NCBI RefSeq assembly: GCF_001542855.1
Contig: NZ_LNBY01000001.1
Span: 248,001-312,000, forward strand
Origin: Erythrobacter sp. AP23
GTDB taxonomy: Bacteria; Pseudomonadota; Alphaproteobacteria; Sphingomonadales; Sphingomonadaceae
Reading direction: 5' to 3'
DNA: 64,000 bases
In this document: positions 58,115-64,000 of the stretch, in pieces
Numbering within the stretch: the first letter of the stretch is position 1
Layout of the letters: the number at the start of each line of letters is the position of its first letter
Translations under genes and position numbers: made by a program
The notes under the pieces: generated by a model
The model's input: only the letters and a program-made list of their open reading frames with translations
Databases searched by the model: none
What the model was told of the DNA's origin: nothing

Positions 58115-58435
58115 TCACCCATCTCCGTTCGTGTCGAGCGCAGTCGAGACACGCTCGCGCGGCGGTTTGGCGAAATAGGATAGTCGATCCCAATCTCCTG
58201 CCGCGAGCGCTTCCTTCTTGGCACGCGACCATTTCTTCACGCGCAATTCGCTTTCGAGAGCTTCGTCACGCGTTGGGAATTCGTCGGCCCAAATCAATGT
58301 CACCGGTCGACGGTGAGTCGTGAATTTGCAGTATCCGCCATGGTGATGTTCCGCGATGCGGCGCTCGAGATCGTCGGTATGGCCGGTATAATACTTCCCG
58401 TCAGCGCATTTCAAAATGTAGCACCAAAAGGGCAT
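58115..58435 (-). CDS. GIY-YIG nuclease superfamily protein (UPF0213-like)
   Basis: 106-residue GIY-YIG domain protein related to E. coli YhbQ. The fold's first strands read CYILKCADGKYYTGHTDDLERRI, with the paired Tyr residues, Arg in the helix and Glu in ESELRVKKWSR. The last 13 codons (ERVSTALDTNGDG) are written by a palindromic repeat whose exact inverted copy lies just upstream of the ATG. It ends three bases before dnaG. Relatives cut damaged DNA in vitro; the role here is unknown. Confidence 0.85.
   Translation of the reverse strand: MPFWCYILKCADGKYYTGHTDDLERRIAEHHHGGYCKFTTHRRPVTLIWADEFPTRDEALESELRVKKWSRAKKEALAAGDWDRLSYFAKPPRERVSTALDTNGDG
58125..58152 (+). repeat. 28-base palindromic repeat, copy 1 (3' end of GIY-YIG gene)
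   Basis: Begins CCGTTCGTGTCGAGCGCAGT and ends CGAGACAC. It can fold on itself (GTGTCGA against TCGAGACAC). It is the exact reverse complement of copy 2 over all 28 bases and supplies the C-terminal codons of the GIY-YIG protein. Confidence 0.85.
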
Positions 58436-58454
58436 CGCGGATATCCAGGCCAGT

Positions 58455-58482
58455 GTGTCTCGACTGCGCTCGACACGAACGG
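58455..58482 (-). repeat. 28-base palindromic repeat, copy 2 (5' side of GIY-YIG gene)
   Basis: Perfect inverted copy of copy 1, 28 of 28 bases, placed 19 bases upstream of the GIY-YIG ATG. Together they enclose the gene like terminal inverted repeats, about 358 bases edge to edge. Confidence 0.85.
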
Positions 58483-58506
58483 ATGTTTTGGGATTCAACC
58501 AGTGTG

Positions 58507-58542: not shown

Positions 58543-59238
58543 TTAGTTACGCGAACCCTCCACAGGCTTATCCTCAGGCGGGAAGGGGCCGGTGGCGGCG
58601 ACTTGGTTGCCTTCGATCTCGAGGAGATAGGCTTCTGCCGGCCCCTGCGGGGGCAGGGTGGACTGCCACCAGAAAGTCATCGTGCTGCCCGGCTTCCATC
58701 CGGATCCACGAACCACGCGCCAAATCAGGCTGCCATTGTCGCTGCTGATCGAAATTGCATCGGGATCGCCCAACGCGGCCTCGGCTTCGGCGGTCGAATA
58801 ACCGATCGATTGGTTGAACCCGCTTGCCTTGCGGATCGTGCGGAAGAGGGTGGGCGCAGTTTCGACCACCTCGGGACCATCGGTAGGCGCGGCCTCGGCG
58901 GTCTCGTCCGCGTCGGCAAGCGTGATCCGGTGGACGTAGGTATAGGCGGTTTCTGCGGGCATCTCGCTGGGATTGCACGCCGCCACTCCCGCGGGGCAGG
59001 CGACATAGCTGACGAGCGTCCCGATCTGGCGATTGCCGGCACTCAGCACGGTTTCGACTTCCGGCCCCTGCGGCCCGACGATCTTCGCGCCCAGCGTCGA
59101 AAGGTCGAGATCGGCACCGACAAGGGTTCGGGGGGCGGCGATGGTTGGCGAGGGAGTGGGCGCGGGTTCGGGTTCGGCAGACCCGCAGGCGGCGAGCATC
59201 AAGACCCCGGCGGAGATCGCAATCGTCGACAGGCGCAT
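58543..59238 (-). CDS. Predicted lipoprotein, paralogue A
   Basis: 231-residue lipoprotein with lipobox LAAC near residue 18 and a Pro/Thr/Ala-rich linker. The mature domain shares with its upstream neighbour the lines LGAKIVGPQGPEVETVLS, SYVACPAGVAAC, AYTYVHRI, SGFNQSIGYS and MTFWWQSTLPPQGPAEAY. Paired Cys suggest a disulphide. I know no family name; periplasmic-face outer or inner membrane anchoring is expected. The internal ATG giving MRLSTIAIS was chosen for its signal peptide. Confidence 0.75.
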   Translation of the reverse strand: MRLSTIAISAGVLMLAACGSAEPEPAPTPSPTIAAPRTLVGADLDLSTLGAKIVGPQGPEVETVLSAGNRQIGTLVSYVACPAGVAACNPSEMPAETAYTYVHRITLADADETAEAAPTDGPEVVETAPTLFRTIRKASGFNQSIGYSTAEAEAALGDPDAISISSDNGSLIWRVVRGSGWKPGSTMTFWWQSTLPPQGPAEAYLLEIEGNQVAATGPFPPEDKPVEGSRN

Positions 59239-59260
59239 CGTCAGGACATCCTTCCTCGCC

Positions 59261-59992
59261 TCACAGGGCAGGGGCGTTGCAGGCGTTGGCCGCGCCCGGA
59301 GCATCGCCGGGATAAGGCCCGGCGCCGGTCGCGCGGGTGTAATTGGCATTGATCGCATAGGCCGGTGCGGGACCGGCGGGGGGCACGGTGGACTGCCACC
59401 AGAAGGTGAGCGGTTCGGCCTGTTCCCACTGGTCGCCGCCATCGCCGGCGCTGACGGTCCACACCAGCGCACCGTCGTCGCAGGTGACGACGACATCGGC
59501 CTTGGCCCCGATCGCGGCCATCGCTTCGTCCTTCGAATAGCCGACCGCGCCGGTGAATCCGGTGGCGGGACGCGTCATGCGGAAGGCGGTCGCGCGCTCG
59601 ACATCCGAAGAATCGGCGCCTTCCCCGCTGCCGCTGTCGGGCTCGTTGTCCTCGCCGGGATAGACCACATGGACATAGGTATAGACCGTGCCCTCGGGCG
59701 CGGTTGCCGGGTCGCATTCGGCCATGCCCGCCGGGCAGGCGACATAGCTGCGCATATCGGCGAAATTGCCTTCCGGATTGGATAGCGCGGTTTCGACTTC
59801 GGTGCCCTGGGGGCCGACGATCTTCGCACCCAACTCGAGATCGAGGAAGTCGACCGCTTCGATATTGCGCGCCAACGCCTCCGCTTCGCCATCGCTCGCT
59901 GCCGTTTCAAGGTCGGTCGGCGGATCGTCCGCGCCGGAGCCGCAGGCGGCAAGCACGAGTGCGAAGGAGAGGGCGACGGGCGTCTTGGTCAT
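59261..59992 (-). CDS. Predicted lipoprotein, paralogue B
   Basis: 243-residue lipoprotein with lipobox LAAC near residue 17. It aligns with paralogue A through LGAKIVGPQGTEVETALS, SYVACPAGMAEC, VYTYVHVV, TGFTGAVGYS and LTFWWQSTVPPAGPAPAY, so the two arose by tandem duplication and have since diverged. An acidic Asp/Gly/Ser insert replaces part of the middle. Its ATG overlaps the yqeY stop (ATGA). Confidence 0.75.
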   Translation of the reverse strand: MTKTPVALSFALVLAACGSGADDPPTDLETAASDGEAEALARNIEAVDFLDLELGAKIVGPQGTEVETALSNPEGNFADMRSYVACPAGMAECDPATAPEGTVYTYVHVVYPGEDNEPDSGSGEGADSSDVERATAFRMTRPATGFTGAVGYSKDEAMAAIGAKADVVVTCDDGALVWTVSAGDGGDQWEQAEPLTFWWQSTVPPAGPAPAYAINANYTRATGAGPYPGDAPGAANACNAPAL

Positions 59993-60591: not shown

Positions 60592-61770
60592 ATGGCCCTG
60601 TCCGCATCTTCGCACGCGCAACCTAAAGATGCCACGGGAGTCCTGGTGCTGGGAGATGGCACCGTCATCTGGGGCAAGGGCTTCGGCGCCAGCGGCTCGG
60701 CGGTGGGCGAGGTCTGCTTCAACACCGCGATGACAGGTTACCAGGAAGTGATGACCGATCCTTCCTACGACAGCCAGATCGTCACCTTCACCTTCCCGCA
60801 TATCGGCAATGTCGGCGCGAACGAGGAAGACCATGAGAGTCGGGGGCTGGGTGCGGTCGGCTGCGTGACGCGGCAGGAAGTGACCCCGCATTCGAACTTC
60901 CGCGCGCAGAACGAATTCGTCGAATGGATGAAGGATCATGGCAAGATCGGCCTGTCGGGGGTCGACACCCGTGCGCTGACTCGCCGCATCCGGCTGTCGG
61001 GCGCGCCCAATGCGGTGATCGCGCACAGTCCGCGGGGTGAATTCGATCTCAAGGCACTGAAGAAGCAGGCCGCCGAATGGAGCGGGCTCGAAGGGCTCGA
61101 CCTCGTCCCCGGCGTGACGCGCGAGGGACAGGAAGACTGGACCGGCGGCCACTGGCAACTCGGTTTCGGTTATACCGAGGGCGGGGCGGAGAAGCCGCAT
61201 GTCGTCGCGATCGATTACGGCGCGAAGGACAATATCTTCCGCAATCTCGTGAAGGTGGGAGCGAAGGTCACGGTCGTGCCCGCGCGCACCTCCTTCGACG
61301 AAATCATGGCCTTGAGCCCCGACGGCGTGTTCCTATCGAACGGTCCGGGCGATCCGGCGGCGACGGGTGAATACGCCGTGCCGGTGATCAAGGCGCTGCT
61401 CGAGGCGGATGTGCCGCTGTTCGGCATCTGCCTCGGCCACCAGATGCTCGGCCTCGCGGCGGGTGCGAAGACCGCCAAGATGTTCCAGGGCCACCGCGGC
61501 GCCAACCACCCCGTCCAGCGCGTCGGGGAAGGGTGGGGCGAGAGCACCGGGCTCGTCGAGATTACCAGCATGAACCACGGCTTCGCGGTCGACGGCGAGA
61601 CGCTGCCCGAAACGGTCGAACAGACCCACGTCTCGCTCTTCGACGGCACCAATTGCGGCATTGCGATCAAGGGCAAGAAGGCGTTTGGCGTCCAGTACCA
61701 CCCCGAAGCAAGCCCCGGCCCGCAGGACAGCTTCTACCTGTTCGAGAGATTCGTGGGGATGTTGGGGTGA
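60592..61770 (+). CDS. carA: Carbamoyl-phosphate synthase small subunit CarA
   Basis: 392-residue glutaminase subunit that feeds ammonia to CarB for arginine and pyrimidine synthesis. The N-terminal domain has VLVLGDGTVIWGKGFG-type sequence and FNTAMTGYQEVMTDPSYDSQIV; the amidotransferase domain has the nucleophile Cys in FGICLGHQMLGLAAG and the catalytic His/Glu in GVQYHPEASPGP. Its TGA overlaps the ATG of a foreign-looking gene instead of leading to carB. Confidence 0.96.
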   Translation: MALSASSHAQPKDATGVLVLGDGTVIWGKGFGASGSAVGEVCFNTAMTGYQEVMTDPSYDSQIVTFTFPHIGNVGANEEDHESRGLGAVGCVTRQEVTPHSNFRAQNEFVEWMKDHGKIGLSGVDTRALTRRIRLSGAPNAVIAHSPRGEFDLKALKKQAAEWSGLEGLDLVPGVTREGQEDWTGGHWQLGFGYTEGGAEKPHVVAIDYGAKDNIFRNLVKVGAKVTVVPARTSFDEIMALSPDGVFLSNGPGDPAATGEYAVPVIKALLEADVPLFGICLGHQMLGLAAGAKTAKMFQGHRGANHPVQRVGEGWGESTGLVEITSMNHGFAVDGETLPETVEQTHVSLFDGTNCGIAIKGKKAFGVQYHPEASPGPQDSFYLFERFVGMLG

Positions 61771-62387
61771 TGGCTATCCGCATCGCTAAACTGAAGGACG
61801 ATATTCTACTTATCCTCTATGATTACATGCTGACCTCTGATCATGAAGGTTTTTGGTTCAGTATCCCAGCTATAACGGAGGCGCTACCGCCTTCGGCGTC
61901 CGGTGCGTTTGTGCAGAGGTCACTCGATGCGTTGATAGCCGAAAAGTTGGTCGAGCAGGGCGGTTCGGACGTTCTCAAATCAGATCTATTTGCTTTGACT
62001 GAACATGGGATCGCAAAGGCTGAGAGCTTGATCGAAGAGCGCGGGGTGGACATTGATGATTACGAACCTGCCCCAGATGCGGATTTGATCCTGTCTCGGC
62101 TGCATGAGCCGGAGAAGTTCTCGGCGGTTGCTGAGAACCTCAAAATGCTCGGGCGTGAAATTGATAAAAGCAATTCATTCGCCGAAGAGACAGCCGAAAA
62201 CGACGATCTAATCCGGGGTGAGATTGAAGCAGCCAATACGCTGATGACTGCGAGCCGTGTCCGGGTTTCTCGATTGCGGGCACTCGTTCTCCCAACACTT
62301 CGTTACCTCGCAAAAACTTTTGCTGATAAATCGATAGGCGAGCTAGCAACCCGACTAATCGCTCTTCTCATTGGTCTGGATTCCTAA
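61770..62387 (+). CDS. Foreign-looking hypothetical protein inserted after carA
   Basis: 205-residue protein I do not recognise by name. Residues about 5-95 look like a winged-helix module ([45 protein letters not shown]); an acidic linker follows, and the C-terminus ([42 protein letters not shown]) is an amphipathic to hydrophobic helix pair. One 60-base row within it has 47% GC against 67% in a carA row, and AT-ending codons are frequent. Its ATG overlaps the carA stop (TGATG), so it rides on the car transcript. Accessory regulator or defence role is speculative. Confidence 0.75.
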
Positions 62388-62494
62388 TGCCGAAACGTAC
62401 TGACATCTCCTCGATCCTCGTCATCGGTGCCGGTCCGATCACCATCGGCCAGGCCGGCGAGTTCGACTATTCGGGCACGCAGGCCCGCGTCTGA
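62387..62494 (+). pseudogene. Truncated duplicate of the carB 5' end
   Basis: Encodes [20 protein letters not shown] and continues to TQARV, then TGA: 35 codons. The first 33 residues equal the true CarB start except T for I at residue 19 and G for C at residue 24. Over about 98 bases I count eight differences from the real carB, so the copy is not fresh. Its ATG overlaps the preceding stop (TAATG) and its TGA overlaps the next ATG (TGATG). No function is expected of the peptide. Confidence 0.9.
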
Positions 62495-63102
62495 TGCGTG
62501 TCGCGGCCCTTTTTGCGGTGGGGCTGGCGACGGCTGCCGTCGCGCAAGAGCCCGACCCACATGAAGTGCAGCTCACGCCCGGCGTCACCTTCACCGGCGA
62601 CGGCGGGATCGAGCGGCTCGAAGGTGTCGATGGCACCGTGATCGCAACCTTCTGGCGTCCGATGCAGTACGAAACCGCCGCCGGGCCCGTGGCCGGCCGC
62701 ATGGATTGCCGCGCAACCGCGGGATGGTCGCCTTTCTCGGCAGCGCTATTTGCGCTCGACGGGGTTCACGCGGCACAGGAAGACCGCCTCTCCTCACGCG
62801 GACTGACCGAGATCGAGCGGCATGAACAGGATGGCGAGCAGGTGCGCCAGCTCGACGTCACCATGCGTGGTACCGGCCCGCTGCGCTATCATGTGCTGAC
62901 CTACATCGCAGTGCGGACGGGCGACGATATCGTCTCGATCCGTCGCGATTGCGTTTTTCCGCGTCGCAGCGGCGTGAGCAAGGCGGATTATCGCCGGCTC
63001 GCGCGGCTGCATACCGATTTCACCGTCGTCCTCCCGCCACCCGCCTCGCCGCTGGCGCAGGATACGCCCAGTCTCGAAACGCTTTCGGAAGTTCCTCTCT
63101 GA
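62494..63102 (+). CDS. Secreted hypothetical protein between carB fragments
   Basis: 202-residue protein with a signal peptide ([18 protein letters not shown]). The mature part is beta-rich with [20 protein letters not shown], two Cys (RMDCRA and RRDCVF) likely forming a disulphide, and a Pro/Ala-rich tail. GC-rich with typical host codon use, unlike the gene two places upstream. Function unknown. It is bounded by the truncated and the intact carB starts and overlaps each by TGATG. Confidence 0.75.
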
Positions 63103-64000
63103 TGCCCAAAAGAACCGACATCTCCTCGATCCTCGTCATCGGCGCCGGTCCGATCATAATCGGCCAGGCCTGCGAGTTCGACTATTCGGGCACGCAGGCG
63201 ATCAAGGCGCTGAAGGAGGAGGGCTACCGGGTCATCCTGGTCAATTCCAACCCGGCCACGATCATGACCGATCCGGAAATGGCCGACGCGACTTATGTCG
63301 AGCCGATCACGCCCGAGATCGTAGCCAAGATCATCGAGAAGGAGCGACCCGACGCGGTGCTGCCGACGATGGGCGGGCAGACGGCGCTCAATTGTGCGCT
63401 CGACCTTGCAAACCAGGGCGTGCTTGAGAAATTCGGCGTGCAGATGATCGGCGCCAATGCCGATGCCATCGACAAAGCCGAGAATCGCCAGCGCTTTCGC
63501 GAAGCGATGGACAAAATCGGCCTCGAAAGCGCGCGCAGCGGGGTGGCGAACACGGTCGACGAGGCCTTTGCGGTGCTCGAACGCACCGGCCTGCCTGCGA
63601 TCATCCGCCCCAGCTTCACGCTGGGCGGCACGGGCGGCGGCATCGCCTACAACAAGGCCGAGTTCGATCGCATCGTGCGTGAAGGTCTCGATGCATCGCC
63701 CACCACCGAAGTCCTGATCGAGGAATCGCTCCTCGGTTGGAAAGAATACGAGATGGAGGTGGTGCGCGACCGCGCGGACAATTGCATCATCATCTGTTCG
63801 ATCGAGAATGTCGATCCGATGGGTGTGCATACAGGCGATTCCATCACCGTCGCGCCGGCGCTGACGCTGACCGACAAGGAATATCAGATCATGCGCACCG
63901 CCAGCATCAACGTGCTGCGCGAAATCGGCGTGGAAACAGGTGGTTCGAACGTACAGTTCGCAGTCAATCCCAAGGATGGCCGCCTGATCGTGATCGAGAT
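63102..64000 (+). CDS. carB: Carbamoyl-phosphate synthase large subunit CarB, 3' truncated by window edge
   Basis: First 299 codons of the roughly 1,080-residue large subunit, which makes carbamoyl phosphate from bicarbonate, ammonia and two [23 protein letters not shown] begins the first carboxyphosphate domain; [39 protein letters not shown] and [18 protein letters not shown] are conserved ATP-grasp lines, and [13 protein letters not shown] follows. The frame is intact to the end of the window. The ATG overlaps the preceding stop. Confidence 0.96.

Follow-up and report, generated by a model that had tools for sequence, protein, structure and literature searches.

Why should carA and carB, which encode two subunits of one enzyme, be held apart by other genes inside their operon? 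The question is raised by a 64,000-nucleotide stretch of Erythrobacter sp. AP23 (assembly GCF_001542855.1, contig NZ_LNBY01000001.1, positions 248,001 to 312,000), called the window below, in which a first-pass annotation had pointed to two inserted genes and a truncated copy of the carB start. On the plus strand, carA (60592-61770; Pfam CPSase_sm_chain and GATase) is followed by X (61770-62387; 205 codons, encoding 205 amino acids), by a 35-codon open reading frame (ORF; 62387-62494) that contains the carB remnant (carB', 62387-62484), by Y (62494-63102; 202 amino acids, with an N-terminus that looks by eye like a signal peptide) and only then by carB, which starts at 63102 and continues past the window end at 64000. 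Stop and start codons overlap at all four junctions (TGATG at 61768, TAATG at 62385, TGATG at 62492 and TGATG at 63100), and the arrangement was confirmed as first described. Across the family, the carA-carB interval proved to be a hypervariable slot in which ORF boundaries are fitted to the flanking codons and one-sided scars of carB recur. The X and Y families recur in this slot as well, which goes beyond what the window by itself had indicated.

The remnant aligns over 98 bp with 63102-63199 of carB at 8 differences, one of them the CGT/AGA exchange reported earlier, and it matches CPSase_L_D1, the N-terminal Pfam domain of carB, at E = 4.9e-10. It is present alongside an intact carB in the window's own assembly. 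Its similarity to carB ends inside the slot near 62484 and gives way to Y-proximal sequence, a non-homologous junction at one end; the presumed recombination junction between carB-derived and Y-proximal DNA is placed at 62484-62485 (no strand) by where the similarity stops.

We compared 159 carA-carB intervals: 58 loci from the genus, one from a named relative (L072) and 100 from the wider family. The genus set came from 60 searched genomes, three of which (G006, G047 and G052) had no usable carB start; the remaining 57 gave 58 loci, with G038, a fragmented assembly with 5% contamination, counted twice for its two loci. For the wider family, 129 genomes were searched, 126 matched outside the genus and 100 of these were used, and a scan of named genomes (at least 80 loci, mostly from distant relatives) served as a broad survey only. 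Loci were selected by carB, and both carA and carB flanked the interval in 159/159. The gap between them ranged from -1 to 2202 bp. It was empty (5 bp or less) in 16 loci and held an insert in 143, and in 131 it was 200 bp or longer. Mean GC content in these 131 was 0.546 for the insert and 0.656 for carA, the insert being lower in 127 of them; in the window the values are 0.51 for X and 0.65 for carA. The early impression of unrelated, foreign-looking genes is therefore borne out by composition, but X and Y have homologs in the same slot in other genera. When all insert ORFs of at least 40 amino acids were clustered by single linkage of phmmer matches, 165 ORFs fell into 63 families, 42 of them singletons. 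Relatives with one type of insert only were found, with a Y-family gene alone in G002 and X-family genes alone in, for example, L006. The ten genus loci nearest to the window by flank identity do not share its arrangement: they have other gap sizes, no match to Y and no 35-codon remnant pattern like that of the window.

The inserts also fit the reading of the operon. A chain was scored as unbroken when each next start lay between -30 and +12 bases from the preceding stop, with ORFs of at least 8 codons and ATG, GTG or TTG as starts. By this rule carA is connected to carB by an uninterrupted series of coupled ORFs in 139/143 occupied slots, compared with 478/2860 dinucleotide-shuffled inserts and 18/143 reverse complements, and in 107/143 it consists of a single ORF. 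The first chain ORF had at least 40 amino acids in 127 loci; it started 1 base before the carA stop codon in 104 of these (the GTGA or ATGA form, TTG included) and at the last base of that stop in 11 (the TGATG form). At the other end, the stop of the last ORF overlapped the carB ATG by one base in 63/130. In several loci with a nuclease gene of the DUF559 family, a frame antisense to that gene forms part of the chain. Most cassettes thus begin within the carA stop codon and close on the carB start codon, a geometry that would let ribosomes leaving carA translate the cassette and go on into carB. Translational coupling of this sort may be what gates the slot.

Remnants of the carB 5' end occur in 13 of the 159 loci, five in the genus and eight in the wider family, the window included; L211 has three copies and L240 has two. 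The aligned stretches are 21-117 bp long and lie within the first 127 bp of carB. Nine loci have E values of 1e-5 or lower and L015 has 1e-4, and three are weak (L069, 0.006; L165, 0.001; L234, 7e-4). Matches to the carA 3' end were limited to six of 11-14 bp (best E 4.5e-4) and were taken as chance; an 11-bp carB match in L162 was likewise dropped. The lack of carA' scars could reflect selection for coupling, because a piece of the 3' end of carA would not supply a start codon. Among the matches listed, the named records L082 and L083 also carry a carB 5' remnant. The presence of remnants in 12 other loci, of which three are weak, and in these two records makes an artefact peculiar to the window's assembly unlikely. 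By eye, a carB-like start begins or sits inside another exported-looking ORF in L165, L192, L211 and L240 (weakly in L165 and in the third L240 copy), as if the duplicated start had been adopted by a new gene.

The remnants themselves give some indication of their source. That of L033 differs from its own carB at 14/94 positions and from another at 3/94, with corresponding values of 9/49 and 3/49 for L227 and 6/39 and 2/39 for L015, and those of L192, L019 and L248 are slightly closer to other carBs than to their own. For the window remnant, which had been attributed to either a diverged relative or an old duplication, the values are 8/98 for its own carB and 6/98 for the closest carB among the other loci, and at 98 bp it is too short to favour either origin. 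The most suggestive case is G037, whose remnant differs at 14/94 positions from its own carB and at 3/94 from that of L029. Nucleotides 1-60 of the G037 carB are nearest to L068 (6/60) and nucleotides 120-399 are nearest to its own tree clade, which suggests a tract boundary between nucleotides 60 and 120. Here the original start of carB seems to survive as the remnant, and the present start to have arrived with incoming DNA; the mosaic carB is suggestive of a trace of exchange, with the reservations that the differences are few, that L068 comes from the contaminated G038 and that the last 60 bp of carA are also not nearest to the clade.

The explanation that we consider probable is that the contents of the slot are exchanged by recombination in its flanks and that the window remnant is the scar of a one-sided event that added a cassette. 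The carA/carB junction would be a cassette slot in which different species hold different, mostly single genes, and recombination within carA and carB, the conserved flanks, would swap the cassettes. One event in the lineage of the window may have been one-sided, homologous in carA or carB and illegitimate at the other end; it would have produced the order carA-X-carB'(98 bp)-Y-carB, with the carB 5' remnant marking that junction. Being one-sided, the event would have added a cassette and replaced none, and the remnant may be tolerated because translation can continue through its frame from X into Y. The first-pass annotation had proposed that two versions of a carA-cassette-carB locus recombined. 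This is still the best account, and relatives have many other versions of the locus; taken as a whole, the proposal is partly supported.

Several observations weigh against this explanation. The loci are related by ancestry, so that counts of them are not counts of independent events, and the chain rule is permissive by definition and is broken in 4/143 occupied slots. Transfer between genomes was not observed in these data, and none of the compared loci has a carB that stands out as nearest to the window remnant and hence as its donor, the best being the 6/98 given above. A gene transfer agent is not supported as the vehicle, the marker GTA_TIM being absent from 60/60 genus genomes. The three weak remnants have E values no better than the chance matches to the carA 3' end. 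Among the ten remnants compared, those of L240 (3/106) and L211 (3/44) are nearest to their own carB and that of L174 ties. On the flank tree, the 34 changes of cassette state observed are fewer than in 300 shuffles (36-45), which points to some vertical signal. A third insert family, c5, has only 2/9 of its matches in the slot and 7/9 outside it. Finally, a DUF559 gene and a remnant occur together in seven loci (14 with DUF559 and 13 with a remnant, of 159; p = 1e-5), and some scars may therefore have another origin.

This last association is the basis of the main rival, in which a mobile element, chiefly DUF559 with palindromic ends, duplicated a long stretch of its target on insertion and thereby made the remnant; in the window the element would later have disappeared or given way to Y. 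Insertion with a long target duplication, which puts copies of the target on both sides of the inserted gene, has reportedly been described by the Kobayashi group. DUF559 is found in 14/159 slots (L015, L019, L033, L049, L068, L069, L156, L157, L161, L169, L177, L211, L227 and L240), whereas a genome of the genus contains no more than 1-6 matches to DUF559. Several slot copies are bounded by CCCTTCCCC..GGGGAAGGG palindromes, and 7/16 remnant copies end 21 bp or less from a palindromic CCCTTCCCC-type end (those of L015, L019, L033, L069, L211, L227 and L240). In G028, moreover, the order is X-type gene, carB', DUF559, Y, carB. However, neither the window slot nor five other remnant loci contain DUF559, and 9/16 remnant copies have no CCCTTCCCC-type palindrome within 60 bp. 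The copies in the slot also differ from a long target duplication in being 5' fragments of one gene, and those same nine do not abut the palindrome of DUF559, no other nuclease element having been seen. The association of DUF559 with remnants has p = 0.10 when restricted to the 22 gaps of at least 900 bp. We examined flanking direct repeats at 30 DUF559 loci, 27 of them outside the slot. The flank repeats at these 27 were mostly palindromic. The exceptions were matches of 16-21 bp in L262, L274 and L275 and two longer GC-rich repeats, one of 138 bp at 80% in L276 and one of 53 bp at 87% in L279. A clear copied gene start beside DUF559 was seen only at the slot locus L256. DUF559 as a general cause of the duplication is thus not supported, and we regard this origin of the window remnant as unlikely. 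We keep it as a rival because of the remnant association and the longer GC-rich repeats at two non-slot loci, and it is possible that the element is a helper as well as a rival.

Less likely still is a tandem duplication within one genome that copied the carB start, after which the copies diverged and X or Y came separately. The remnants of L240 and L211, and by eye that of L083, are nearest to their own carB, as such a duplication would predict, but those of L033, L227 and L015 resemble other carBs more than their own. Tandem duplication alone also fails to explain the presence of cassettes on both sides of a remnant.

The contents of the slot show high turnover, even where its flanks are similar. 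Within the genus, different cassettes occur at a flank identity of 0.94 (for example in L063/L064 and L046/L047), these and all other cassette comparisons being between species and not strains. A tree built from the flanks of 58 loci (57 from the genus, with L069 omitted, plus L072) carries 25 cassette states, for which 24 changes are the minimum against the 34 observed. Turnover is therefore high despite some vertical signal, which also appears as clade-wide cassettes, namely the clade with family c4 and three empty slots that lie together. As controls, the PPIase (peptidyl-prolyl isomerase) and queA parts of another gene pair are 103 bp or less apart in 60/60 genus genomes (read by eye), and the nuoC-nuoD domain matches are 1268-1427 bp apart in 56/59 genomes and closer in three. 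These three (G027, G004 and G052) fall short of the other 56 by 324-635 bp, suggesting the loss or gain of a small gene. The view that the inserts are ordinary operon members of vertical descent, differing through fast divergence and loss with no exchange, would suit the clade-wide cassettes and the number of changes below that of the shuffles, but is very improbable in the face of 63 families, cassettes that differ between loci whose flanks are 94% identical, an X family found in the slot in 19 genera and the suggestive mosaic carB of G037.

Slots of exchangeable genes are known from other bacteria. For the same two genes, Lawson et al. in 1995 reportedly found a variable carA-carB intergenic region in Neisseria; the likeness is variable DNA between carA and carB, the Neisseria DNA being reportedly rich in repeats and without coupled single-gene cassettes. 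The nearest known concept, also from Neisseria, is the minimal mobile element (MME) as defined in PMC3082526. The slot resembles an MME in its two conserved flanking genes, here carA and carB at every locus of a set chosen by carB, and in having different whole-gene cassettes between the same flanks, although here this is seen between species only. Homologous recombination in the flanks, another feature of the MME, fits the mosaic carB of G037 and the tree discordance, with no transfer observed. The cassettes of an MME also lack mobility genes; here, no transposase or integrase family was listed at E 0.01 for the 53 cassette proteins of the genus, and DUF559 is present in 14/159 slots. Unlike an MME, the slot is flanked by the genes for both subunits of a single enzyme within their shared operon, its cassettes fit by stop-start overlap with ORF continuity kept, and additions leave carB' scars. 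A second parallel is the orphan immunity arrays of the Vibrio type VI secretion system, for which PMC5361080 proposes homology-facilitated illegitimate recombination: one end is anchored by homology and the other is illegitimate, and a module is added while part of the old locus is kept. In contrast to those arrays, the slot has no visible effector-immunity logic, and the piece retained is the start of an essential gene and not an immunity gene. Among the titles and abstract starts searched, with most subscription papers outside the search, we found neither a variable carA-carB slot in this family nor the combination of an essential operon, stop-start fit and carB' scars. We read the locus as a probable exchangeable cassette slot like the MME.

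We also examined where the X and Y families occur and what they may encode. X matched 9 other genomes of 397, lying between carA and carB in 8/9. A 13-row profile of X-family slot members matched 20 other genomes of 298, with carA and carB as flanks in 18/20; the two exceptions outside the slot were the weakest matches. Because 7 of these 20 genomes had contributed rows to the profile, the independent figure for confinement is 11/13. The X cluster comprises 25 slot ORFs by single linkage, some of them, such as that of L042, joined by the C-terminal part alone (by eye). Y matched 8 other genomes of 397, in the slot in 8/8, besides G028 and G002 in the genus. Both families are therefore confined almost only to the slot, which is not general to all cassettes, as c5 indicates. 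The c5 proteins (L312-L320) are small and have an N-terminal hydrophobic stretch.

X is probably a winged-helix protein. Its N-terminus is winged-helix-like, a reading that follows from matches of the X-family profile to solved MarR- and PadR-type regulators (best E 8e-4), and its C-terminus is helical; a single-sequence AlphaFold2 model of X has a mean confidence score (predicted local distance difference test, pLDDT) of 58. X had no match at E 0.01 in Pfam, PADLOC, NCBIfam or PHROGs, or in plasmid or phage records. Y, which had no Pfam match at E 1, is probably exported, judging from its N-terminus. Of 11 cassette pairs, 10 had a usable rate of synonymous change (dS), and in all 10 it exceeded the rate of nonsynonymous change (dN). 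Examples are the window Y and that of G028 (dN 0.111, dS 0.705), L027/L028 (0.034, 0.331) and L064/L067 (0, 0.09), and the least constrained pair is L059_2/L060_2 (0.083, 0.153). X and Y are probably functional genes of the slot. Against PADLOC, the 53 genus cassette proteins gave one match (E 9e-4); against PHROGs they gave five families with one member each, of which one was strong (phrog_13799, E 2.6e-13, no function given). Their search for transposase and integrase families at E 0.01 was negative, with one weak match to Retrotrans_gag (0.0052). An origin in defence or phage genes is not supported for X but is possible for other cassettes.

Upstream of carA, the window contains two minus-strand ORFs (58543-59992) for related exported-looking proteins that share LGAKIVGPQG.EVET and are likely a tandem pair, judged by eye, and a minus-strand ORF at 58115-58498 that resembles, again by eye only, a GIY-YIG nuclease domain protein.

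More tentatively, and with rather less confidence than we place in exchange through the flanks, the slot can be pictured as a capture site that needs no integrase and is gated by translation. It would tolerate any DNA that leaves ribosomes a path between carA and carB, and with each addition a new carB start would be left behind, which later cassettes could adopt as start codon and N-terminus. Arrays might grow in this way, L211 having up to three carB' copies, and fusion genes might arise within an essential operon. If flank exchange is the right explanation, accessory genes are swapped inside an essential biosynthetic operon, where insertion should be harmful, under a simple and testable rule, that of unbroken translation. 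There would then also be a pool of uncharacterised families, including X and Y, for which a single chromosomal address is almost the only home in many genera, and this confinement would make it directly testable whether their function is tied to the address or to the exchange itself.

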